Of a stretch of 64,000 bases of DNA, positions 3,986-60,087 are shown in pieces. The position numbers were made by a program, and so were the translations under genes. Within the stretch, counting starts at the first letter, position 1; each line of letters begins with the position of its first letter. Where the stretch lies: contig JASBTI010000036.1 of assembly GCA_030148505.1 (NCBI GenBank), positions 1 to 64,000 of the forward strand, written 5' to 3'. Under the pieces are notes generated by a model, which was not told the origin of the DNA, did no database searches, and saw only the letters and a program-made list of their open reading frames with translations. This DNA is from Rhodanobacter sp. Lineage in GTDB: Bacteria; Pseudomonadota; Gammaproteobacteria; Xanthomonadales; Rhodanobacteraceae.

Positions 3986-5016
3986 GCTGACTCCGGAACA
4001 TTGAGGTCGGGGGCAAAGCGATGTCGGGGCAAGCCAAGCCACTCCAGTGCGGTCCCGTGGAACAGTCTGGCACGCGCCTCCTCGTCCAGGCCTAGTGCCT
4101 CGATGCCGCTGCCGGGTTGTTGCTCCCCCAGGGGGAAAGGATAGTCGGTACCGAGCATGACCTGTTCGACGCCCGTCACATCCAGCAGATAGCGCAAGGC
4201 TTGCTGGTCGTGCACGCAGGAGTCGAAGTAGAAGCGCTTGAGGTACTCGCGCGGATTGCGGGGGTTATCGGTGGCGACCAGGTCCGGGCGCATGCGAAAG
4301 CCGTGCTCGATACGTCCGATCGTCGCCGGAAAGCTGCCGCCACCGTGCGCCAGCATTACCCGCAACTTCGGCAACCGCTCCAGTACGCCACCAAAGGCCA
4401 GGCAGCAGGCCGCGCGGGATTGCTCGGCGGGCATGCCGACCAGCCATGGCATCCAATACTTCGGCATGCTGGCGGCTCCCATCATGTCCCACGGATGCAC
4501 CAGCACGGCCGCTCCGAGGTCGGCGGCAGCTTCGAAAAACGGAAACAGTTCAGGCGCGTCCAGGTTCCACTCGCCGCAGTGCGAGCCGACCTGTACGCCT
4601 TGCAGGCCGAGTTCGTCGATGCAGCGTTCGAGTTCACGGATCGCCAGTTTTGGTGCTTGCAGCGGCACCGTGCCCAGACCGGCGTAGTGGCGCGGGTAAT
4701 CGCGGCACAAACCCCCCATGTGGTCGTTGAGATGCCGGTGCAGCTCCAGCGCCTGATAGCCAGGCGCCCAATACGACATCAGCACCGGTACGGTGGAGAT
4801 TACCTGTACGTCGACATCGAAGCGGGCGTAGTCGTCGATACGATGCTGCGGGTCAAACGCCGTATCCCAGACCTCACGAAAGAAGCGGCTGTCCTTGTAG
4901 ATGCGATGCCGCCCATCGGTATGCGTCATCACCGGGAAGCGGTCGTCGCCGTATTTGGCCGCCAGGTTCGGCCAGTCGCCGGGCAGGATGTGCGCGTGAG
5001 TATCGATCTTCAGCAT
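3982..5016 (-). CDS. ACMSD-type amidohydrolase (aminocarboxymuconate-semialdehyde decarboxylase)
   Basis: 344 residues from the ATG at 5016, where the family-typical start MLKIDTHAHILPGDWP begins; an ATG at 5076 is in frame but adds unrelated sequence. ACMSD decarboxylates 2-amino-3-carboxymuconate-6-semialdehyde, diverting 3-hydroxyanthranilate carbon away from quinolinate/NAD. Metal ligands of the amidohydrolase barrel are visible: HAH in THAHILP, His in VLVHPWDMMG, and the late Asp in MLGTDYPFPLG. The VQVISTVPVLMSYW segment is also typical of ACMSD. With kynU downstream the context fits tryptophan degradation by the kynurenine route. Confidence 0.9.
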   Translation of the reverse strand: MLKIDTHAHILPGDWPNLAAKYGDDRFPVMTHTDGRHRIYKDSRFFREVWDTAFDPQHRIDDYARFDVDVQVISTVPVLMSYWAPGYQALELHRHLNDHMGGLCRDYPRHYAGLGTVPLQAPKLAIRELERCIDELGLQGVQVGSHCGEWNLDAPELFPFFEAAADLGAAVLVHPWDMMGAASMPKYWMPWLVGMPAEQSRAACCLAFGGVLERLPKLRVMLAHGGGSFPATIGRIEHGFRMRPDLVATDNPRNPREYLKRFYFDSCVHDQQALRYLLDVTGVEQVMLGTDYPFPLGEQQPGSGIEALGLDEEARARLFHGTALEWLGLPRHRFAPDLNVPESA

Positions 5017-51837: not shown

Positions 51838-51887
51838 TGGTGGGCGGTGCAAGGATCGAACTTGCGACACCTGCCGTGTGAAGGCAG
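51838..51887. repeat. Left attachment site (50-bp direct repeat, tRNA-Val 3' fragment)
   Basis: Identical over 50 bp to 60013-60062; the next base on either side differs. It contains the complement of the T arm, variable loop, anticodon 3' stem and CCA of tRNA-Val(CAC), but lacks the 5' half, so it cannot be a functional tRNA. Confidence 0.95.
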
Positions 51888-51968
51888 ATTTTAGGGGTAT
51901 CCAGAAGTCTCAAGTTGTTGAAAACCTTGATTTGACGCTATCCGTGAACCCCTAGTAATCCCCCCATG

Positions 51969-51993
51969 TTTTCCGTACTCTTTCCGTACTGGC
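51969..51993 (+). repeat. Left subterminal repeat with two TTTCCGTACT boxes
   Basis: Two TTTCCGTACT decamers lie 11 bp apart start to start and end in GGC. The same 25 bp, with one C-to-T change, occur at 59945-59969 near the right end in the same orientation. The position beside the integrase start and near both attachment sites fits integrase arm-type or excisionase/AlpA binding sites. Confidence 0.75.
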
Positions 51994-52011
51994 GATTTTG
52001 AGGGTGAAATC

Positions 52012-53181
52012 ATGGAACTGGGCACGGTCCGAAGTCGCGAAAAACTCAAGCCACAACGTGAGCCGTACTGGCAGAAATTGGCGGTGGGTCAGCACCTGGG
52101 CTTTCGTCCGTCGAGTGCCGGCGGTGGCGGTACGTGGATCGCCCGCTTCTATGACCCCGACACCGGCAAGAAGCCCTTGCAGTCGCTGGGCGCTTTCGAT
52201 CATCTGCCGGCATCCGAGCGGTTCACTGCCGCGTCCAAGGCGGCGCGGGAATGGTTCAAGCACCTGTCCAGCGGCGGCGCGCACGAAACCATCACTGTTG
52301 GCCAAGCCTGTGAGCGGTACGTGGAGCACTTGAGCCGCGACAAGGGCGAGGTGAAAGCCAATGAAGCCCGCGCCCGGTTCCGGCGCTTTGTCGACGCCGA
52401 TCCGATCGCATCCATTGAGCTGCCGAAGTTGAAGAAGGTGCATCTGCTGGAGTGGCGTCGACGGCTCACTGCCGCCCCGGCTGTCATTGCCAATCGCAAG
52501 GGTGGCAAGCCGACCCGCAAGCGGTCGCCGGCCACCATCAACCGCGATATGGTGCCAGTACGCGCGGCGCTGAATCTGGCGCTGGCGGACGGCTATGCAC
52601 TATCGGCGCTGGCATGGCGTGCGGCACTGAAACCGCTGGAATCGAGCGGGAGGCGCACCGTGTACCTTGATCGTGTCCAACGCCGCGCCCTGCTGGACAA
52701 GCTGCCGGAGGATGTCGCCACGTTCATCACGGCACTGTGTCTGCTGCCGATCCGTCCGGGTGCGCTGGCTGGTCTGACCGTGCGCGACTTCGATGCCCGG
52801 CAAAAGACCCTGCGAATTCACCACGACAAAGCCGGCGGTGGACGTACCATCCTGCTGCCTGACGCGACCGTCAAGCATCTGCGTGCATCTGCACGCGGAA
52901 AGCTGCCGACCGCACCCCTGTTCGCCCGATGGGACGGCAAGGCATGGGACAAGGAAATGTGGAAGAAGCCAATCAAGGAAGCCATGGCGGCGGCTGAGCT
53001 GCCGGAGTCCGCCAGCGCGTACACGCTACGCCATAGCGTCATCACCGATCTGGTCACCGAAGGTCTGGACCTGTTCACCGTGGCGCAAATAAGCGGTACG
53101 TCCGTCGCCATGATCGAAAAGCATTACGGCCACCTGCAACGCGACCGCGCTGCCAAGGCGCTGGCCGGACTGGCGCTGTGA
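52012..53181 (+). CDS. Tyrosine recombinase (site-specific integrase)
   Basis: 389 residues. N-terminal arm-binding part (about 1-90), core-binding SAM-like domain (about 90-180, GQACERYVEHLSRDKGEVKA) and catalytic domain from about 210. Catalytic Arg248 is in LLPIRPGALAGL, the second box reads YTLRHSVITDL (Arg340-His341) and the nucleophile Tyr372 is in AMIEKHYGHLQRD. The usual first His of HxxR is Tyr337 and the later GH is GT (ISGTSVAMIE), a variant seen in this integrase group. It lies next to the left attachment site, at the opposite end from the intact tRNA, and reads into the element. Confidence 0.93.
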   Translation: MELGTVRSREKLKPQREPYWQKLAVGQHLGFRPSSAGGGGTWIARFYDPDTGKKPLQSLGAFDHLPASERFTAASKAAREWFKHLSSGGAHETITVGQACERYVEHLSRDKGEVKANEARARFRRFVDADPIASIELPKLKKVHLLEWRRRLTAAPAVIANRKGGKPTRKRSPATINRDMVPVRAALNLALADGYALSALAWRAALKPLESSGRRTVYLDRVQRRALLDKLPEDVATFITALCLLPIRPGALAGLTVRDFDARQKTLRIHHDKAGGGRTILLPDATVKHLRASARGKLPTAPLFARWDGKAWDKEMWKKPIKEAMAAAELPESASAYTLRHSVITDLVTEGLDLFTVAQISGTSVAMIEKHYGHLQRDRAAKALAGLAL

Positions 53182-53296
53182 GTTGCACATCATGCGACGC
53201 CAGCATGAAGAATCGGGCCTGGCCCGGTAAGCGGCGGCACCGGGTGTTAGTGGCACCCGGTCCGCCTTCCACAACCGTTCGATAGGAGAACGATCA

Positions 53297-53455
53297 ATGG
53301 CAACTGAAAGCGTAACGGATCAACAGGCAATTTGCGGTGACGAGATCGAGGAGGAGTTTCTGCGGGTGTGGTGTCAGCTGGACGTAACCGGCAAGCAACT
53401 GACGATGATCGCCCTGCGGGACATGCTGCGGGAAGGCCAGGGGTGCAGGTCATGA
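53297..53455 (+). CDS. 52-residue protein of unknown function
   Basis: A short acidic protein (MATESVTDQQAICGDEIEEE followed by FLRVWCQLDVTGKQ). It has a strong AGGAGA ribosome binding site 7 nt before the ATG at 53297, and its stop overlaps the next start as ATGA. Those two signals, not any family resemblance, are why I call it. No membrane segment. Probably a small regulatory or accessory protein of the element. Confidence 0.65.
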   Translation: MATESVTDQQAICGDEIEEEFLRVWCQLDVTGKQLTMIALRDMLREGQGCRS

Positions 53456-53727
53456 GCGAACTGCACCAATGCCTGCTGAGGGCGCGCCTTCGTGAAAAAA
53501 TGGGCTGGAAAGCGCCGGCCGCCAAGCTGACGGTCGTCGGCAAACCGGTGCCAATGCCAACCCCCGCTGAAACCTTCCGCGACGCATCCGCGTCCATTGG
53601 CGACTTCGCGCAACGCTGGCGCGATGGCACCGCAACACTGTCAGAAATCGATGACGCCGATATCCAGCTCCTGAGCATGCGTCGATTGCTGAAGGAGAAA
53701 AGGCAGGTGATGGGGGTGCCGGCATGA
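53452..53727 (+). CDS. 91-residue element protein of unknown function
   Basis: Starts at the ATG at 53452 inside the previous stop (ATGA); the longer frame to 53368 is shadow of the preceding gene. Predicted mostly helical and basic (MSELHQCLLRARLREKMGWK), with a C-terminal helix DIQLLSMRRLLKEKRQ. No family recognised. Its own stop overlaps the next gene's ATG, so five consecutive small genes look like one translationally coupled block. Confidence 0.65.
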   Translation: MSELHQCLLRARLREKMGWKAPAAKLTVVGKPVPMPTPAETFRDASASIGDFAQRWRDGTATLSEIDDADIQLLSMRRLLKEKRQVMGVPA

Positions 53728-54071
53728 GCATCTCCATCGACAACGAACTAGACCGCCTTCTATCGCTTGTTTCCGGTGGAAACTGGGTCCGTGCCAGTCT
53801 TGCAAGGTTGTCTTCAGACGGATTGAAATCCGTCGCGAGCCTGGCGGAAAGCAACGCCGAAAACGCAGCATCGCAGTTAATGAAAATAGGCTCAGTGTTA
53901 GGGCGTGGCGGTCTAGAGAACGACGAAGTGAGTGCGCTCGGCTGGATCACGAAGGATCTGGCCGAAAAGGCCGAGGTGTGCAACACATTAGCAGCCTTCG
54001 CGCGCGAGTTTGAGAATCCAGAACTGCGATCCCTTCATATGCAAATTATTAAGGATGGCGCCCCCGCCTAA
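53724..54071 (+). CDS. 115-residue element protein of unknown function
   Basis: Starts by ATGA overlap at 53724. Helix-rich soluble protein (MSISIDNELDRLLSLVSGGN; later ENDEVSALGWITKDLAEKAE, FAREFENPELRSLHM). GC is lower than in the neighbouring integrase. No recognisable family, signal or membrane segment. Confidence 0.65.
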   Translation: MSISIDNELDRLLSLVSGGNWVRASLARLSSDGLKSVASLAESNAENAASQLMKIGSVLGRGGLENDEVSALGWITKDLAEKAEVCNTLAAFAREFENPELRSLHMQIIKDGAPA

Positions 54072-54138
54072 CCGAGCACCACCGCGCCAGCTCGCCCGGC
54101 TGGCGCGGCACATCTTGAAGGGCGCGGAGGTGTGCGAG

Positions 54139-54651
54139 ATGAGTAAAGCAGGTCTGACGTTTCGCGGCGCAGGTGGAGTTAGCCGGATGGATCCAGTGCG
54201 GCTTGAAGCTGCGGACGAATTGGGTCGAAAAATGGTGCGGGGCACCGCATCGATCGAAGTACGCAACGAATTAAGGAAGTTCAACGCCACAGGCAACGGC
54301 GTTCACGCATGGCGCGCGTATGCGCTTGCCCGCAGTGCAGGCCTGCCGATTCATCCCGATGTGCTCGCTTACCTTGATGAGTGCGCTTCTGCAGCAACGC
54401 AAGGCAGCAGCCCGATGACGGTGGTCTCGATGATGCGGCTATCAAATGTACGCGGCGGTGCTCGCGTACAACGTGCCGCCTGCATAACGGATCACCAGCA
54501 CATGCAATTACTGTCCTTGGCGATGGCGTACCTGCACTGTCCCAAAGGGGGAAAAAAGGCAGCGAGGATCCGTGTCGCGGAACAGTACGGCACGACGGAA
54601 GGTTCGCTGTACCAGCTATGGAGGAGGGCAACCAAAGCCGAACCGCTGTAG
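54139..54651 (+). CDS. 170-residue element protein with a possible helix-turn-helix
   Basis: Start set at the ATG at 54139 because GGAGG lies 8 nt upstream; ATGs at 54055 and 54010 are in frame and would overlap the previous gene. The C-terminal stretch AARIRVAEQYGTTEGSLYQL is suggestive of a DNA-binding helix-turn-helix (RVAEQYGTTEGSLYQLWRR), and the middle has QHMQLLSLAMAYLHCPKGGK. A regulator or replication-associated DNA-binding protein is possible. I recognise no named family. Confidence 0.65.
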   Translation: MSKAGLTFRGAGGVSRMDPVRLEAADELGRKMVRGTASIEVRNELRKFNATGNGVHAWRAYALARSAGLPIHPDVLAYLDECASAATQGSSPMTVVSMMRLSNVRGGARVQRAACITDHQHMQLLSLAMAYLHCPKGGKKAARIRVAEQYGTTEGSLYQLWRRATKAEPL

Positions 54652-54742
54652 CTGTACCCGGGGACGTTTCCATACAGCGGCGTTCATGTCATGAAATGCC
54701 CATCAACCCCGGCACATCGCTGGGGATTGGTGGAGAATCACA

Positions 54743-55021
54743 ATGCACGCTTTCGCACTTGCACACCCTGGCCATCTGGCCCTGTTGGACTTCGCGGCGA
54801 TCCGCGAACGTAGCGGAATCAGCCACGCCGAATGGTACCGGCACATGGCACGCGGCACCGCGCCGCGCCCGGTGAAGATCGGCACCGCCAGCCGCTGGCC
54901 TGCCCATGAAATAGATGCACTGATTGCCTCGCGTATCGCCGGCAAGACCGATGCTGAGCTGGTCGAGTTGGTCAAGGCCATGCATGCCGCACGTACCGCC
55001 TCATCGGAGGTGGCGGCATGA
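54743..55021 (+). CDS. AlpA-type helix-turn-helix regulator/excisionase
   Basis: 92 residues. LLDFAAIRERSGISHAEWYR is the first helix-turn-helix, followed by the wing GTAPRPVKIGTASRWPAHEI and DALIASRIAG, the full MerR-like winged-helix signature of AlpA. In P4-like elements AlpA activates integrase expression and helps excision. Its stop overlaps a further start (ATGA at 55018). It is the best marker that this element belongs with satellites or integrative elements rather than full prophages. Confidence 0.9.
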   Translation: MHAFALAHPGHLALLDFAAIRERSGISHAEWYRHMARGTAPRPVKIGTASRWPAHEIDALIASRIAGKTDAELVELVKAMHAARTASSEVAA

Positions 55022-55312
55022 ACGCCCCTAACAAGATAGAGGCCGAGATTGCGGCCATCGTCAAGGATGCCGGAAAACATCACTCCCGACGCGCAAGGGA
55101 ACTTGCCGCAGCTCGCCTGCATCGACTCATTGCTTCAAGGCCTAACGCCTTCAACGCGATTTGCGACGAGCAGCGCCGGCGCGGGGGCACTCGTGCCTAC
55201 GGACGCCCTGAACTCTCCCCGGACCGGATTACCGCCGAGTCCTACACATGGAAAACCAAGGACCGTCAGCACCAGGCGCGAAAATGCTTGCATCAAACGG
55301 GAGGGCCGCACG
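55018..55312 (+). other. Coupled open frame after alpA, possibly a truncated gene
   Basis: ATG at 55018 overlaps the alpA stop. The first ~95 codons look coding (MNAPNKIEAEIAAIVKDAGK, then a basic helix HHSRRARELAAARLHRLIAS). The frame does not end: it stays open through the oppositely framed tail-tip-like gene into the gene at 55747, giving an unbroken 447-codon frame to 56361. I think the real small gene lost its 3' end by deletion, so only the first part is original. Confidence 0.4.
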
Positions 55313-55750
55313 ATGAACGCCGATACTATCACTGTGCTGGCAAAACCCCATGCGCTCCGTCAAGAGCTGGTGCAGGCCCACTTTCCAGCAGGCTGGACCT
55401 TGGCGCAGATGCTTGGCGAGGATGCCCACGAACTGCTACGGGTGACCATCAACAGCGTCGATGTACCGCGCAAGGTCTGGGGTCACCTGAAACCGCGTGC
55501 CGGTTCGACCGTGCATGTCCGCATGGGCCTGCAAGGCGGAAACGGTGGCAAGGTGCTGCGCACGGTGGCGCTCGTGGCCCTTGCGGCGGCAGCGATGTAC
55601 ATCACCATGGGCGGCGCAGCGGGTGCTTATGGCACGTCCGCAACATGGTTTGCGCAAGGCTCTCTTTCCGCTTCCATCTTGTCGGTTGGCGTGACCATGG
55701 TCGGGTCCATGGATGGCGGCTCACTGACGGCACAAGGGGGTGCGGCATGA
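55313..55750 (+). CDS. Tail-tip (TipJ)-like N-terminal fragment
   Basis: 145 residues from the ATG at 55313, with CGGGAGGG about 10 nt upstream; the frame to 55049 is not supported. The N-terminal half is ubiquitin-like (TLAQMLGEDAHELLRVTINS, then VPRKVWGHLKPRAGSTVHVR), followed by the Gly-rich linker MGLQGGNGGKVLRTV and two hydrophobic segments (ALVALAAAAMYITMGG, SASILSVGVTMVGSM). This is the layout of the N-terminus of TipJ/host-specificity tail proteins, normally over 1000 residues, but the gene stops where the rest would start. It is coupled to the next gene by ATGA. Seen in a satellite, it may act on helper-phage tails; that is inference. Confidence 0.7.
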   Translation: MNADTITVLAKPHALRQELVQAHFPAGWTLAQMLGEDAHELLRVTINSVDVPRKVWGHLKPRAGSTVHVRMGLQGGNGGKVLRTVALVALAAAAMYITMGGAAGAYGTSATWFAQGSLSASILSVGVTMVGSMDGGSLTAQGGAA

Positions 55751-56361
55751 GCACCCTTAACGCCTATGTCGGTGACCACCACGCCCTGCTGGCCGTTGAT
55801 ACCTTCGTACAGAAAAACGGCGGCGTGCTGGTTCATGGCCCGAAGCTGTTCCCGATACCGCACGCCAAGGTTGTGGTTGGGGTACGCGGTGACCTGATTT
55901 TCGGCATGCAGGTGTCGAACCACCTGCACCTGGGGCCGGTGGCTGACTTCGACAATGCAGTTACCACGATGCCGGCGATTCTGGACCGCGTAACCGCCGA
56001 CTATTCCCAGCAGCGCAAGGAGCACGGCGACCTGCCATGGGCTGGGGTCGAAATCGCACTGGTGGGATGGTCGAAACGCGCCGGGCGGATGCAGGGCATT
56101 CGCTGGGAAAGCTGGCCCGGTGACAAGCTGTTCAAGACCACCCCGATTGAACCGTGGAGCCTTTCGCCGAACGCCGACTGGCCCGAGATACCCAAGGCAC
56201 CGGACAGTGCCGAGAAGATGGAAGCCCTGGCGCGGGATCAGGTCAAGTTCATTCGCACGCACCTCCCCGGTGCCGTGATTGGGGGTCACCTGCTGCTGGC
56301 TGAGATCACCCGCGAGGCAATGACCATCAAATGCATTGCCGATCTGGAGGCCACCCCATGA
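55747..56361 (+). CDS. Element protein, possible Ntn-hydrolase-like fold
   Basis: 204 residues from the ATG at 55747 (ATGA with the tail-tip-like gene). The start pattern MSTLNAYVGDHHALLAVDTF and PKLFPIPHAKVVVGVRGDLI recalls proteasome/Ntn-hydrolase-like strands and loops found in some phage proteins, but the nucleophile cannot be assigned by eye. The C-terminal part has IGGHLLLAEITREAMTIKCI. No membrane segment. The stop overlaps the zinc-finger gene. I would treat the fold suggestion as a hypothesis. Confidence 0.6.
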   Translation: MSTLNAYVGDHHALLAVDTFVQKNGGVLVHGPKLFPIPHAKVVVGVRGDLIFGMQVSNHLHLGPVADFDNAVTTMPAILDRVTADYSQQRKEHGDLPWAGVEIALVGWSKRAGRMQGIRWESWPGDKLFKTTPIEPWSLSPNADWPEIPKAPDSAEKMEALARDQVKFIRTHLPGAVIGGHLLLAEITREAMTIKCIADLEATP

Positions 56362-56894
56362 ACAGGCCCCAGACACGACAAACCCAGCCGGGCAAGGGCT
56401 GGGTTCAAGATCGCACACACAACAACTCCAGCGCCAAAGTTACCACCATCGGCACCCCTTTGCAGCTGCTGTTGCCGAGGCTTGAAGGGGTCGTCACGAC
56501 CGGCAACGGCTGGCGTGCACGCTGTCCGAACTGCGGCGGTAAAGGGCACAAGCTGGCCATCGTCGAAGGCGACAACGGTACGTTGCTGGTGACTTGTTTC
56601 AGCTGTCACGACACGGGTGCAGTACTTGCCGCAGTCGGCTTGCAGATGGGTGACCTGTTTCAGCGTCGCCACTATCGAAACATGACCCCAGCCGAACGCA
56701 GCCAGCTCCGGCAGGCGGCATTGATTCCTCGTTGGCGCGCTGCCCTGGAGGTGCTGAGCCGCGAGGCCACCGTGCTGCTGATTGCCGCCAACAAGCTTGG
56801 CGATGGTGACCAGTTGGATGATGCCGAGCTGACCCGTATGCGGGTGGCTGCCCTGAAGCTGTTCGATGCACAGGAGGTGCTCAATGCACGCTGA
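56358..56894 (+). CDS. CHC2-like zinc-finger primase-type protein
   Basis: 178 residues from the ATG at 56358 (ATGA). A zinc ribbon of the primase kind is visible: Cys56-x2-Cys59 in RARCPNCGGKGHKLAIVEGD, then Cys80-x2-Cys83 in LLVTCFSCHD, with GTPLQLLLPRLEGV before it. The rest is helical (AERSQLRQAALIPRWRAALE). There is no TOPRIM or archaeo-eukaryotic primase catalytic domain, so it is either a template-recognition subunit or works with the ATPase encoded next, whose start lies inside its 3' end. Confidence 0.8.
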   Translation: MNRPQTRQTQPGKGWVQDRTHNNSSAKVTTIGTPLQLLLPRLEGVVTTGNGWRARCPNCGGKGHKLAIVEGDNGTLLVTCFSCHDTGAVLAAVGLQMGDLFQRRHYRNMTPAERSQLRQAALIPRWRAALEVLSREATVLLIAANKLGDGDQLDDAELTRMRVAALKLFDAQEVLNAR

Positions 56895-58512
56895 GCCAGA
56901 GACCTACAGCGCCAGCATCGATGATCTGGCTGCACGCGAGGAAGCGGCAACATCGATGCCAGAGAGCATCACCTTGTTCGACGACAACGGTCAGCGCAAG
57001 GCGCAATCCACGGTCCTTACCGAGATCGGTCAGCAACACCATCTGTTCCACAATCCCGACAGCGAGGCATTCGCCCGGGTTACGGTGGCCAACCATGCCG
57101 AGGTGTTTCGCGTCGCCGGTAGCGAGTACCGCGACCTGTTGGGCCGCACGTACTACCTGTTGTCAGGCAGTGGCGCGAATCGCAATGCGATTACCGATGC
57201 CGTGGCGACGCTCACGGCCACCGCGCGCTATGCCGGCCCGGAGGAACCCGTGCACCTGCGCGTCGGTGCTACCGATAGCGGCATTGTGATGGATACCGGT
57301 GCCAGCGATTGGGCGGTGATTGAGGTCGACACTTCCGGCTGGCGAATCGTGCGCCAGCATGCTGTGAACTTTCGCCGCACGACGAAGGCGACGGCATTGC
57401 CTGTAGCCGGTCACGCGGACTTCGGCTTGATCTGGAAATACATCAACGTGGAAGTGGCCGACCGCGTACTGGTGGCGGCTTGGCTGCTGGCAGCACTGCG
57501 GCCGCATGGACCGTTTCCGATCCTGCTTCTGTTGGGCGAACAGGGCACCGGCAAGTCCAATTCCAGCCGCACCCTGAAGTCGCTTACCGACCCGTCCGGC
57601 GTGCCATTGCGACCGCCGCCGCGTGATGACCGTGATCTGCTGGTGGCCGCGCTTAATTCATGGGTGCTGGCGCTGGACAACTTGAGCGGCGCGACGCCGC
57701 AACTGTCCGACGCCCTTTGCCGACTCGCTACCGGAGGTGCCCTGGCCGGGCGCAAGCTGTACACCGACAGCGAGGAATCTGCGCACAACATCCAGCGTCC
57801 GGTCATCTTGAACGGGATCGACGACCTGGCCTCACGTCCTGACCTTGCCGAGCGTTGCATCCACCTGACCCTGCCGACGCTCACCACACGCACCACTGAG
57901 GCGGAGTTGGCGGCGCAGTTCAAGGTGGACGCGCCCAAGATCATGGCGGCCTTGCTGGACGGCGTGGTGCTGGCCCTGCGCGACGTGGCTACCGTCAACA
58001 TCGGGGTATTGCCGCGCATGGCCGATTTCGCCAAGTGGGCAGCGGCTGGCGTGCCGGCGCTGGGCTTCACGGCTGAAGCGTTCATCACGGCATATCGGCG
58101 CAATCAGGCTGATGCGGTGGCGCTGGGGCTGGAATCGTCCACCGTGGCCTGCACCATCCGCAGTTTCGCCGAGCGTCACGGGCGCTGGAAAGGCACCGCC
58201 CGGGAGCTGCTGTCACGGCTGAATCAGGAAGCCGAGGCCGACCGGAATATGCCCGGCTGGCCACATTCGCCGAAGGGTTTACAGACGATCTTGCGGCGGC
58301 TGGCACCGTCACTGCGCAGCATTGGCATCCACGTCGAGCGTGACCGCAATGCCGAAGGTCGATATCTGACCCTATCGTGCCAACCCCGTGGGCAAGTGTC
58401 ACAAGTGTCACAACTGACACCAGCACCGCTATTGAATGACGGAATGACACATATGACACTTCCCCGCGAACCTAGCACGGTCGCCCCCACCCCGGAGGCT
58501 TTCGACCTATGA
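56884..58512 (+). CDS. P-loop ATPase, replication-helicase-like
   Basis: 542 residues from the ATG at 56884, overlapping the primase-like gene by 11 nt. After an N-terminal domain with EVDTSGWRIV-type strands, the ATPase core has Walker A GEQGTGKS (218-225), a Walker B-like VLALDNLS (Asp265), a sensor-like ILNGIDDLASRPDLAERC and a C-terminal helical region. This organisation resembles the ATPase (DUF927-like or SF3-like) part of phage-satellite and plasmid primase-helicases, here as a separate polypeptide. The likely job is origin unwinding for element replication. Confidence 0.85.
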   Translation: MHAEPETYSASIDDLAAREEAATSMPESITLFDDNGQRKAQSTVLTEIGQQHHLFHNPDSEAFARVTVANHAEVFRVAGSEYRDLLGRTYYLLSGSGANRNAITDAVATLTATARYAGPEEPVHLRVGATDSGIVMDTGASDWAVIEVDTSGWRIVRQHAVNFRRTTKATALPVAGHADFGLIWKYINVEVADRVLVAAWLLAALRPHGPFPILLLLGEQGTGKSNSSRTLKSLTDPSGVPLRPPPRDDRDLLVAALNSWVLALDNLSGATPQLSDALCRLATGGALAGRKLYTDSEESAHNIQRPVILNGIDDLASRPDLAERCIHLTLPTLTTRTTEAELAAQFKVDAPKIMAALLDGVVLALRDVATVNIGVLPRMADFAKWAAAGVPALGFTAEAFITAYRRNQADAVALGLESSTVACTIRSFAERHGRWKGTARELLSRLNQEAEADRNMPGWPHSPKGLQTILRRLAPSLRSIGIHVERDRNAEGRYLTLSCQPRGQVSQVSQLTPAPLLNDGMTHMTLPREPSTVAPTPEAFDL

Positions 58513-58913
58513 GCGCTATTCAGCTGATCCGCGAATGCCGGGACGCGGGAATCCGCCTACAAGCACACGGTGACCGCCTTCACGTCGAAGCACCAGCTGG
58601 CAGTATCACCCCGGAACTACGGCGGGCACTGGCCGAGCACAAGGCCGATCTGCTGGCGCTGCATGCGATCCGCACCCGTCTGCTGGCCTTGGCCGTCAGG
58701 ATGGGCATACCCCGTTGCGTAGTGGATGAACTGCCGGTGGAGGAACTGGAAGCCACGGCACAGCAGGCCGCGTGGTGCGAGGGCCACACCGCCGCCAATG
58801 GCGACCCGCTACCGCACGCACTGCTGGTGTTCTACCTGCGCACCCTGGCTGATCGCATGGACGCGTCACAGGGCAGCCCTGCGCCGGCTGGTGGAGGCTC
58901 GTCGAATGGGTAG
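58509..58913 (+). CDS. TubC_N-like docking-domain protein
   Basis: 134 residues, ATGA overlap with the ATPase. The first ~60 residues (LIRECRDAGIRLQAHGDRLH, EAPAGSITPELRRALAEHKA, DLLAL) match the TubC N-terminal docking domain of NRPS/PKS enzymes, which also appears alone in phage and satellite replication modules. The C-terminal half is helical, ending in YLRTLADRMDA and a Gly/Ser-rich tail. In this setting it probably mediates protein-protein contacts in replication, not peptide synthesis. Confidence 0.75.
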   Translation: MSAIQLIRECRDAGIRLQAHGDRLHVEAPAGSITPELRRALAEHKADLLALHAIRTRLLALAVRMGIPRCVVDELPVEELEATAQQAAWCEGHTAANGDPLPHALLVFYLRTLADRMDASQGSPAPAGGGSSNG

Positions 58914-59008
58914 GGGTAGGGGGGTCAAATCTCTAGGTTGAACGTCCTGAAAACCGCGCACGCCCCTTCGTTTTCGTAACCCGCAACAATTTTCGGAAAG
59001 CCGTGACC

Positions 59009-59179
59009 ATGAAAACCGCACCTGTAGCCCAATGGCGCATACCCCGATGCAAGCACTGTGGCCAACCGCTGGGTGTGTTCAGTCTGCGCAAGACGTGCTC
59101 CGACCGATGTAGGCAGGCGCTGAGCCGCGCGACACGTCGGGGGTCCACCGAAGTCTCAACCAGTCGCAGAGGGCGCTGA
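59009..59179 (+). CDS. 56-residue zinc-finger-like small protein
   Basis: Starts at the ATG at 59009. Four cysteines in the pattern Cys14-x2-Cys17 ... Cys30-x3-Cys34 (RCKHCGQ, KTCSDRC) make a likely zinc-binding fold of the CxxCG...CSDxCR type common in small satellite and phage proteins. No strong ribosome binding site was seen (CGGAAAG about 10 nt upstream). The 3' end runs into the ParB-type remnant, so its C-terminus may be altered. Confidence 0.6.
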   Translation: MKTAPVAQWRIPRCKHCGQPLGVFSLRKTCSDRCRQALSRATRRGSTEVSTSRRGR

Positions 59180-59445
59180 TCGCGGCTGGGTTTCTGGAGT
59201 ACGAAAAGGAGCAGGCGAAATCACGACAAGGGTCGCGCAATGACATGGTGGAAACATTTCCACCAGGTGAAGAAGGTAAGGCCCGCGACAAGGCCGGCGA
59301 GCGCATGCACGTATCCGGTCGCACGGTCGATGACGCCGCCAAGGTCATCGCCAAGGCCGTCCCCGAGATCATCGAAAAAGTCCGCAGCGGAGAGATGAGT
59401 GTGAGCGCTGGCGGATCACTGCGCCGCTTTGACCCTCACCCATTC
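59140..59445 (+). pseudogene. Remnant of a ParB/partition-type replication gene
   Basis: Frame 1 here encodes RSLNQSQRALIAAGFLEYEK, then QAKSRQGSRNDMVETF and GEEGKARDKAGERMHVSGRT and VDDAAKVIAKAVPEIIEKVR, ending in SGEMSVSAG. This is the HTH part of ParB-type proteins on phages and plasmids: an S/NQRA start, a KARDKAGE block, a VSGRTV helix-turn-helix and VPE(I/L)xExVxSGExSVSA. The N-terminal ParB nuclease domain and the C-terminus are absent. The frame overlaps the small zinc-finger gene on the left and a convergent membrane-protein gene on the right. Most simply explained as the leftover of an internal deletion. Confidence 0.65.
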
Positions 59446-59862
59446 CCTCTTCAAGATCGACTGCGACAAGGCGATGAATGCTGGGATATCGGTCTTGTCT
59501 TCATAGCCGGCCTGGTGAATGCCCTTGGCGGCATCCCCAACCAACACAAGCAATAGTTGGTGATCTTTTTCTGCGGGATTCAACATTAACGCGATCTTCG
59601 TTCGACACAACTGCATCTTGGCTGTCTTGTCGAGTGTGTTTTGGCCGCTATACATGCCTGTGCGCGCTATCGTGTTTAGCTCGACAGCGAGAGTGACAAA
59701 CTCCGCGAGCAACTGCCTGAGTTCATCAATCCAGCGTTGCCGATTGGCAGACAAAACGGTAGCTCGGATCTGCCGCTTCGCGATGGACAGTTGAATGAGC
59801 GGCCCGAAGAAGACCGCCAGCGCAGCGATGACGAGGGGCAGCACAGCGGTCAGTGTTGGCAT
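59416..59862 (-). CDS. Membrane protein with a helical cytoplasmic tail (possible cargo gene)
   Basis: 148 residues from the ATG at 59862, chosen for GGAGGG 6 nt upstream; the ATG at 59907 is less likely. One N-terminal hydrophobic helix (LTAVLPLVIAALAVFFGPLI) is followed by a long basic and helical region (NRQRWIDELRQLLAEFVTLA). It is the only minus-strand gene in the element, next to the right end, the usual place for cargo genes of satellites. No family recognised. A host-protective or interference role is possible but not shown. Confidence 0.75.
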   Translation of the reverse strand: MPTLTAVLPLVIAALAVFFGPLIQLSIAKRQIRATVLSANRQRWIDELRQLLAEFVTLAVELNTIARTGMYSGQNTLDKTAKMQLCRTKIALMLNPAEKDHQLLLVLVGDAAKGIHQAGYEDKTDIPAFIALSQSILKREWVRVKAAQ

Positions 59863-59930
59863 ACAGCGCCCTCCGGTTTGATCTGCTGAGTGTCCACGCC
59901 GCCTCACATCATGATCAAGAAAAAAACCGC

Positions 59931-59948
59931 CTTTTGAGGGGCGGTTTT
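59931..59948. terminator. Hairpin near the right end of the element
   Basis: AAAAACCGCC and GGCGGTTTT form a stem with a TTTTGAG-type loop between the membrane-protein gene and the right subterminal repeat. It could end transcription arriving from either side. Confidence 0.65.
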
Positions 59949-59969
59949 CCGTATTCTTTCCGTACTGGC
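59945..59969 (+). repeat. Right subterminal repeat with TTTCCGTAYT boxes
   Basis: Same 25 bp as 51969-51993 with one substitution (the first decamer reads TTTCCGTATT). Both copies are also followed within 30 bp by GTGAAATCA. The same orientation at both ends suggests integrase or accessory-factor sites that flank the attachment core. Confidence 0.75.
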
Positions 59970-60012
59970 AACTTCGCAGGTAGTGAAATCACCGGTAAGT
60001 CTTTGAAATCAT

Positions 60013-60062
60013 TGGTGGGCGGTGCAAGGATCGAACTTGCGACACCTGCCGTGTGAAGGCAG
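60013..60062. repeat. Right attachment site (50-bp direct repeat)
   Basis: Perfect copy of 51838-51887, forming the 3' two thirds of tRNA-Val(CAC). The crossover probably lies in the anticodon or T-arm part, as for other tRNA-targeting integrases. Confidence 0.95.
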
Positions 60063-60087
60063 TGCTCTACCGCTGAGCTAACCGCCC
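60013..60087 (-). tRNA. tRNA-Val (anticodon CAC), integration site
   Basis: 75 nt on the minus strand with encoded CCA (60013-60015). The acceptor stem GGGCGGT pairs with ACCGCCC, the D arm has AGCTCAGCGGTAGAGC, the anticodon loop is TTCACAC with CAC at 34-36, and the T arm has AGTTCGATCC. It reads GUG codons. Its 3' 50 bp (60013-60062) are the right copy of the direct repeat, so the element leaves the gene intact. Confidence 0.97.

Follow-up and report, generated by a model that had tools for sequence, protein, structure and literature searches.

A tRNA-Val island of Rhodanobacter is probably a capsid-less, PICI-like phage satellite carrying a gene pair that appears derived from a tail tip

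What kind of mobile element has inserted at the tRNA-Val(CAC) gene in a 64,000-nucleotide stretch of Rhodanobacter sp. DNA (contig JASBTI010000036.1, positions 1 to 64,000, hereafter the window)? The element is an 8.2-kb island (51838-60062) bounded by perfect 50-bp direct repeats, which reach 54 nt if one mismatch is allowed; the right-hand repeat forms the 3′ part of the intact tRNA gene. A sequence-only reading of this DNA had already recognized these repeats, and proposed a satellite lineage of Xanthomonadales without virion genes. From the comparisons described below, we consider the island to be probably a capsid-less phage satellite resembling the phage-inducible chromosomal islands (PICIs), with a two-gene module, o8 and o9, that seems to derive from a phage tail tip. 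The satellite reading is favoured because the island has been transferred recently, its predicted helicase fold is shared with a Staphylococcus aureus pathogenicity island (SaPI), its integrase family is shared with records that resemble capsid-forming PICIs (cf-PICIs), and relatives of its ATPase lie in loci without virion-gene matches.

To look for virion genes, 14 structural queries (capsid, protease, portal, large and small terminase subunits (TerL and TerS), tape measure protein, tube and tail-tip protein J) were run at E ≤ 1e-4. Over the whole window they gave a single match, to J at 55316-55702. The earlier statement that the island has no capsid, portal or terminase stands at this sensitivity, while the broader phrase "without virion genes" has to be given up, since o8 matches the N-terminal domain of J and recurs together with o9 in a capsid-bearing element. 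Among the matches of the general family scans there was no lysis family (no search was aimed at lysis genes), no relaxase or conjugation family, and neither the capsid-size (Sid/Psu) nor the P4-type alpha primase-helicase families; DUF3987 and DUF5906 were also missing from the island proteins in a Pfam scan with E up to 1. The whole island has no near DNA match among phages or plasmids. An integrated plasmid-like or mobilizable element would fit the compact replication-type module, but the lack of relaxase or conjugation families in the general scans and of a near plasmid match makes this origin very improbable.

The match of o8 to the Pfam lambda tail protein I family is weak and below the cut-off, and that to the phrog tail fibre J profile has an E value of 2.2e-5. 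A three-sequence o8 profile (window, L003 and L037) matched 8 of the 299 genomes of the order, namely the island's own genome, G221, five genomes in frames of 836-2797 aa, and G063 in a 367-aa frame. In the prophages of G083 and G004, J begins with ~130 residues that align with o8 along its length, and the end of o8 coincides roughly with the start of the J body. The identity of these two J proteins rests on phrog_31 (1.4e-80 and 2.2e-84, respectively), and their tube, tape-measure and NlpC/P60 neighbours were labelled by eye. By these matches, o8 appears to be a stand-alone N-terminal domain of the siphophage tail-tip protein J, and thus virion-derived. Searches with tblastn in phage records gave nothing for o8 or o9, those in viral contigs gave one 29% match for o8 and nothing for o9, and sequence searches of solved structures gave none for o8 and nothing convincing for o9. 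As a separate observation, the J-like open reading frame (ORF) of L143 (G005) is broken by three in-frame TAG codons, and other long frames show no clear sign of a recoded genome.

The partner, o9, has no Pfam domain. It has a relative of 38-42% identity in G221, where it lies beside o8, and relatives of 24-29% in seven other genomes of the same order; four of the latter neighbourhoods were read, of which L040 and L041 look prophage-like by eye, and in L040 the o9 relative lies between a J-like ORF and an integrase gene, again by eye. An o9 profile run against 369 genomes of the class found no match beyond the own genome and a single other genome of the order. The profile phrog_13702, labelled terminase large subunit, spans most of o9 (E 3.5e-5, 218 positions), but this assignment was rejected because o9 lacks a terminase domain in Pfam; the label itself may be wrong.

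The clearest parallel comes from G221, a genome of the same family and another genus, where a ~10-kb element at a tRNA-Pro gene (L037:2039-12194) has the same layout and carries, in order, an HK97 capsid gene (2.9e-31), a cold-shock-domain gene, o8 (35%), o9 (38%), an HNH gene and a terminase small subunit gene (8e-7). With no PF04860 portal in the G221 genome, this element is a candidate partial-virion satellite. Since o8 and o9 are adjacent in two satellite-like elements, the pair looks like a module and not a chance scrap.

The second line of evidence is the replication module. The o10 product matches the DNA primase profile phrog_6088 (3.5e-7) and resembles the zinc-binding region of phage primases, as the sequence-only reading held, with no Pfam family above its cut-off. 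For o11, the separate P-loop ATPase of that reading, no family was above the cut-off either, including all AAA matches. An AlphaFold model of o11, built on a 10-sequence alignment of the window and named-locus proteins, had a mean pLDDT of 73.8, and its closest counterparts in the PDB were viral D5-type helicases and primase-helicases of helicase superfamily 3 (SF3/D5); the E values were 4.4e-4 against the satellite SaPI5 protein (7ola) and 2.7e-5 against PriRep1 (7pds), with low TM-scores of 0.3-0.4 by query length. In BFVD, the model was closest to two phage proteins, one labelled "ATP-binding protein" (3.7e-30) and the other a helicase from a Microbacterium phage (1.1e-29). The predicted o11 structure thus resembles an SF3/D5-like helicase-type ATPase, a fold it has in common with the SaPI helicase. 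A sequence search of solved structures with o11 gave P-loop-only matches, mostly to ABC transporters, and was not used.

Relatives of o11 were found in 13 named loci from several phyla, in 8 of 299 order genomes at 1e-20, and in 6 of 45 genus genomes, one a weak match (own genome included in both counts); nothing was found in viral contigs. The satellite part of the earlier proposal is therefore upheld by comparison, but a restriction to Xanthomonadales does not suit the replication module, whose ATPase relatives come from several phyla. The closer loci typically contain an integrase, small genes, a zinc finger and the ATPase, and many also have an AlpA-like gene, recognized from a sequence match in L003, L010 and L043 and by eye in the others; a TubC_N gene follows the ATPase in L002-L004, L010 and L042, as in the window, where the predicted TubC_N protein is confirmed by PF18563 at 4.8e-15. 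The structural queries matched only 1 of 16 ATPase loci (L003, J piece only), a set that leaves aside L011-L014 (weaker or partial), short genome-search loci and L079 (a 3.3-kb contig), against 19 of the 20 loci used for comparison, among them those that supplied the queries. Since the queries are proteobacterial, their silence in L005-L009, which belong to other phyla, means little. On a separate point, the ATPase elements of L002, L004 and L042 are flanked by 19-20-bp repeats of near-identical sequence (L002:7214, L004:6680, L042:6102) with a tRNA gene at neither copy; as read by eye, the left repeat forms the 3′ end of a small coding gene.

The integrase points in a different direction. It is a tyrosine recombinase (PF00589, 5e-11; phrog_1, 3e-37) with no close match in phage records (seven records, coverage at most 66%), and has relatives of 34-52% identity in 16 IMG/VR loci, whose records measure 8-32 kb (8.2-15.1 kb in 14 of them). 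An HK97 capsid gene (PF05065) is present in 13 of these 16 records, a proportion that is biased because IMG/VR is chosen for viral genes and its records may be fragments; the link between integrase and capsid is itself unaffected. The capsid, protease and portal queries together match 9 of the 16 loci. One of them, L148, has the order integrase, AlpA, primase, capsid, protease, portal, an unmatched 135-aa ORF and TerL, which is the cf-PICI layout, and another, L155, combines a 38% integrase and a 43% o10 relative with capsid, portal and TerL. Because the integrase and the replication module mostly have different kin, the island is, as judged by these relationships, a mosaic in which an integrase of the cf-PICI type is joined to a replication module known elsewhere from islands without virion-gene matches. 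We also observed that L144, L153 and L159, three records measuring 9.9-11.1 kb whose integrases belong to this family, contain a capsid gene together with a tail tape-measure gene, with no portal or TerL match in the part of each record covered.

Of three other Rhodanobacter records, L002, L004 and L003 (G015, G016 and G019), it is L003 that gives evidence for mobility: taken as another species, it carries the same island at the same tRNA-Val; the sequence-only reading had proposed looking for such a second tRNA-Val locus with the same gene order. Two stretches of the island backbone, of 3865 bp and 951 bp, are 97.8% and 98.4% identical, respectively, whereas the left chromosomal flank is 77.3% identical over 798 bp and the right block 86.4% over 1594 bp, a value to which the tRNA and the final ~100 bp of the island contribute. 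Such a difference between backbone (97.8-98.4%) and flanks (77-86%) indicates a recent transfer of the island between species. The block of integrase and o2-o3 is 91.5% identical over 1908 bp (98.2% for the integrase gene alone), and in L003 ~0.8 kb of other DNA separates the neighbouring GGDEF gene from the left repeat. The two copies differ in o4, which has no L003 counterpart, in the o7 segment, and in the right-end cargo, where L003 has a lipoprotein gene (PF03923) in place of o14 and o15; these differences would fit mosaic mobile elements. Across eight genes, o5 not among them, the ratio of nonsynonymous to synonymous substitution rates (dN/dS) was 0.02-0.39 (o8 0.16, o9 0.19), values from one pair with few changes and no test, by which the eight genes look constrained.

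These observations also bear on whether the island could be what decay has left of a cf-PICI or prophage after the loss of its head genes. The capsid genes of its integrase kin, the origin of o8 from a late phage gene and the appearance of o14, by eye, as a gene fragment would all agree with decay, but the main ORFs are open, the compared genes look constrained, a close copy is present in another species, and the ATPase recurs in 16 loci free of structural matches save for the J piece of L003, so that we regard a remnant as quite unlikely.

The occupancy of the site varies within the genus. Thirty of the 45 genus genomes each provided one locus, and the remaining 15 gave a match but no locus. 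Among the 30 loci, the GGDEF neighbour ends less than 500 bp from the tRNA in 11 and less than 115 bp in 3, and a gap below 500 bp leaves no room for an element; without L095, which is 51% identical, and L120, where the tRNA is inverted, this empty-site count becomes 9. In G044 and G008 the same tRNA-Val site holds other islands or scars, with integrases 38% and 48% related, respectively, the latter lying in two frames. On this survey, the tRNA-Val site is an integration hotspot. The G044 island (L122:3216-12961) contains the 38% integrase, an AlpA-like gene, a helicase/primase-type ATPase and a large terminase gene split across two overlapping ORFs, meaning that one tRNA site and one integrase family serve both an element that has terminase genes (L122) and elements that lack them (window, L003). 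In L103 (2277-2572) and L127 (reverse strand, 4583-4906), two to three partial tRNA-Val 3′ copies stand next to the intact tRNA at intervals of ~125 bp, with much the same spacer after each of them, and are either integration scars or a tandem array.

The organization of the island is given in Table 1. From the integrase to o13 all genes run rightward, many overlapping their neighbours by a few bases, with small cargo at the right end. The match supporting the AlpA-like regulator of the earlier reading is weak, phrog_66 giving 1e-4, whereas PF05930 (E 0.0055) stays below its cut-off. A second repeat pair of 38 nt and 84% identity lies near the island ends, and both copies contain doubled TTTCCGTACT motifs. 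At no more than one mismatch, TTTCCGTACT has six matches in the window, four of them in these two places, against 1.04 expected and a maximum of four in 100 shuffles; the doubled motifs are probably arm-type sites of the integrase. As had been noted from the sequence alone, the integrase lies at the end opposite the intact tRNA. The notion that it is misplaced was dropped because tRNA-site relatives (L037, L088, L090, L122 and L123) are laid out alike. Direct repeats of at least 18 bp occur in 9 of 13 loci tried, and none was found in L010, L043, L087 and L089. A defence-gene scan of nine window proteins and one of L003 gave a single weak match that was not used.

Table 1. Positions of the features of the island in the window, with the basis of each assignment
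Feature	Position	Strand	Basis
attL, 50-bp copy of tRNA-Val 3′ part	51838-51887		repeat search
probable integrase arm-type sites, TTTCCGTACT twice	51968-52005	+	role inferred
tyrosine integrase, 389 aa	52012-53181	+	PF00589, phrog_1
three small ORFs: o2 53297-53455, o3 53452-53727, o4 53724-54071	53297-54071	+	ORF list
o5, no family assigned	54055-54651	+	96% identical in L003
AlpA-like regulator/excisionase	54743-55021	+	weak PF05930 and phrog_66 matches
o7, extra ~286-bp segment	55018-55312	+	absent from L003; frame without stop until end of o9
o8, putative stand-alone J N-terminal domain (weakly lambda I-like), 145 aa	55313-55750	+	profile matches
o9, partner ORF, 204 aa	55747-56361	+	relatives beside o8 in L037
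o10, primase-type zinc-finger protein	56358-56894	+	phrog_6088
o11, SF3/D5-like helicase-type ATPase, 542 aa	56884-58512	+	predicted fold
o12, TubC_N-domain protein	58509-58913	+	PF18563
o13, small protein	59009-59179	+	weak treble-clef match, below cut-off
variable right-end cargo: o14 (+, 59245-59556), o15 (-, 59416-59907)	59245-59907		L003 comparison
probable right-hand arm-type sites	59944-59981	+	role inferred
intact tRNA-Val(CAC); attR = 60013-60062	60013-60087	-	tRNA search and repeat

A satellite needs a helper, and a co-resident prophage had been suggested as one to look for. None was recognized in the own genome using phrog_2, PF04860 and phrog_31: the TerL profile phrog_2 matched weakly at two places, each within a long frame judged unrelated, the portal family PF04860 gave none (other TerL and portal families were not covered), and the J profile phrog_31 gave nothing at 1e-10. 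At 1e-3, phrog_31 found two ORFs: o8, and one at a contig edge (1.5e-8) whose match is confined to profile positions 878-966 and which adjoins repeats read by eye as RHS-like. In the genus, phrog_31 at 1e-10 matched 8 of 45 genomes, over the J body in G004 and G005 and only at positions about 878-1058 in the other six. The helper, if any, is probably an exogenous infecting phage.

In the satellite model that we favour, phage infection would induce AlpA, which would help the integrase to excise the island between its two 50-bp repeats; replication would then fall to o10, with its zinc finger, and to the D5-like helicase o11, and a tailed helper phage would package the island in its head. The o8/o9 pair would act at the helper's tail tip, with o8 mimicking the domain by which J (or lambda gpI) joins the tail-initiation complex, and would either block the helper tail tip or permit a chimeric tail. 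More tentatively, and with doubt, capsid-less and capsid-bearing satellites might share a J-domain/partner module that seizes or blocks the helper's J-initiation complex and so decides whose tails form.

Alternatively, the island could be a hitchhiking genomic island and no dedicated satellite, excised by its integrase and spread through transformation or through transduction, general or by a jumbo phage, in which case o8/o9 would be no more than anti-phage cargo. Published tmRNA islands provide a precedent, the available part of the source describing an integrase and AlpA, no recognised transfer genes, and one island moved by a jumbo phage (PMC12595487). The family scans and structural queries, which found no recognisable terminase, capsid-size or packaging gene, also suit this explanation. 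Its difficulty is the presence of a replication-type module with a D5-like fold and of an integrase family common to capsid-forming elements, and we consider it rather unlikely.

Several observations weigh against the satellite model or its tail-tip part. The PICI-like assignment comes from gene content, and a helper, excision, replication and packaging are predictions; the AlpA match is weak, and an exact 58-mer of the circular junction is absent from viral contigs. A 28% relative of o11 occurs in a full 48-kb Microbacterium phage, so that the ATPase alone is no satellite marker. On the integrase side, besides the IMG/VR selection bias given above, the closest kin (L144, 52%) has capsid and protease genes together with a tape measure, the portal and TerL queries remaining without match in the part of the record covered, and neither o8 nor o9 was found in the covered parts of the capsid-bearing kin. 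For o9, the predicted model (pLDDT 47.8) was too poor for a fold search, and two of the four neighbourhoods read (L038 and L046) show no clear phage genes by eye. The L037 o8 shares 54% identity with the G004 J in a 72-aa alignment and 35% with the window o8; being closer to a prophage J, it opens the possibility that o8 may have been captured more than once, from helper J genes. The o8/o9 pair perhaps has its role at the tail tip, as homology would suggest.

How does the island compare with known systems? Gram-negative PICIs are small site-specific islands with an integrase, an AlpA-like gene and a replication-type gene, and no capsid gene; the window island resembles them in its size, specific site, integrase and lack of a capsid match, and tentatively in a weakly matching AlpA-like gene and a predicted replication-type module, but differs in its separate zinc-finger and D5-like ATPase genes, its TubC_N gene and its J-domain/o9 pair. 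With cf-PICIs it has the integrase family and, by a weak match, AlpA in common, and in L155 also the zinc-finger gene, but it has no capsid, protease, portal or terminase match. P4-like satellites are marked by the capsid-size genes Sid/Psu and the P4-type primase-helicase alpha gene, and these markers were not among the family-scan matches of the island. Of the head, tail and packaging modules of a prophage, only the J N-terminal domain was found, and the relaxase or conjugation genes of integrative conjugative or mobilizable elements did not appear in the general scans. The Vibrionaceae phage-inducible chromosomal minimalist islands (PICMIs), as far as the available text of PMC10803314 describes them, are small and have int, AlpA and a primase-type gene without a capsid-remodelling gene, as the window island appears to, and AlpA-assisted excision on phage infection has been shown for them; PICMI models there use a DUF3987/DUF5906 primase and a fis site, whereas the window island shows neither domain in the Pfam scan and sits at tRNA-Val.

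Our limited open-access search, outside which most subscription papers fall, found no paper joining Rhodanobacter, prophage and satellite, and by title none on a stand-alone J domain in a satellite. That satellites pirate tails has been found only very recently: in the accessible portion of PMC12987554, the PICI-like elements (PLEs) use their own tail proteins to make chimeric tails, a separate protein, Rta, restricts phage tails, and putative tape-measure genes are shown in some cf-PICIs. The likeness to PLEs is that of a satellite coding for tail pieces, but PLE11 encodes a tape measure, a chaperone and a baseplate hub (PMC12987554), whereas the window island has the siphophage J N-terminal domain. 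A likeness of possible function, blocking the tails of incoming phages, exists with Tab, which the part of PMC10884400 at hand describes as an 83-residue prophage protein that blocks tails via the tape measure and has no similarity to proteins of known function. By analogy, o8 could do either at the J step, making chimeric tails as PLEs do or blocking tails as Tab does. If the o8/o9 pair does act on J, tail piracy would extend to the siphophage host-recognition tip and to elements without a capsid gene, in a simple two-gene system to test.

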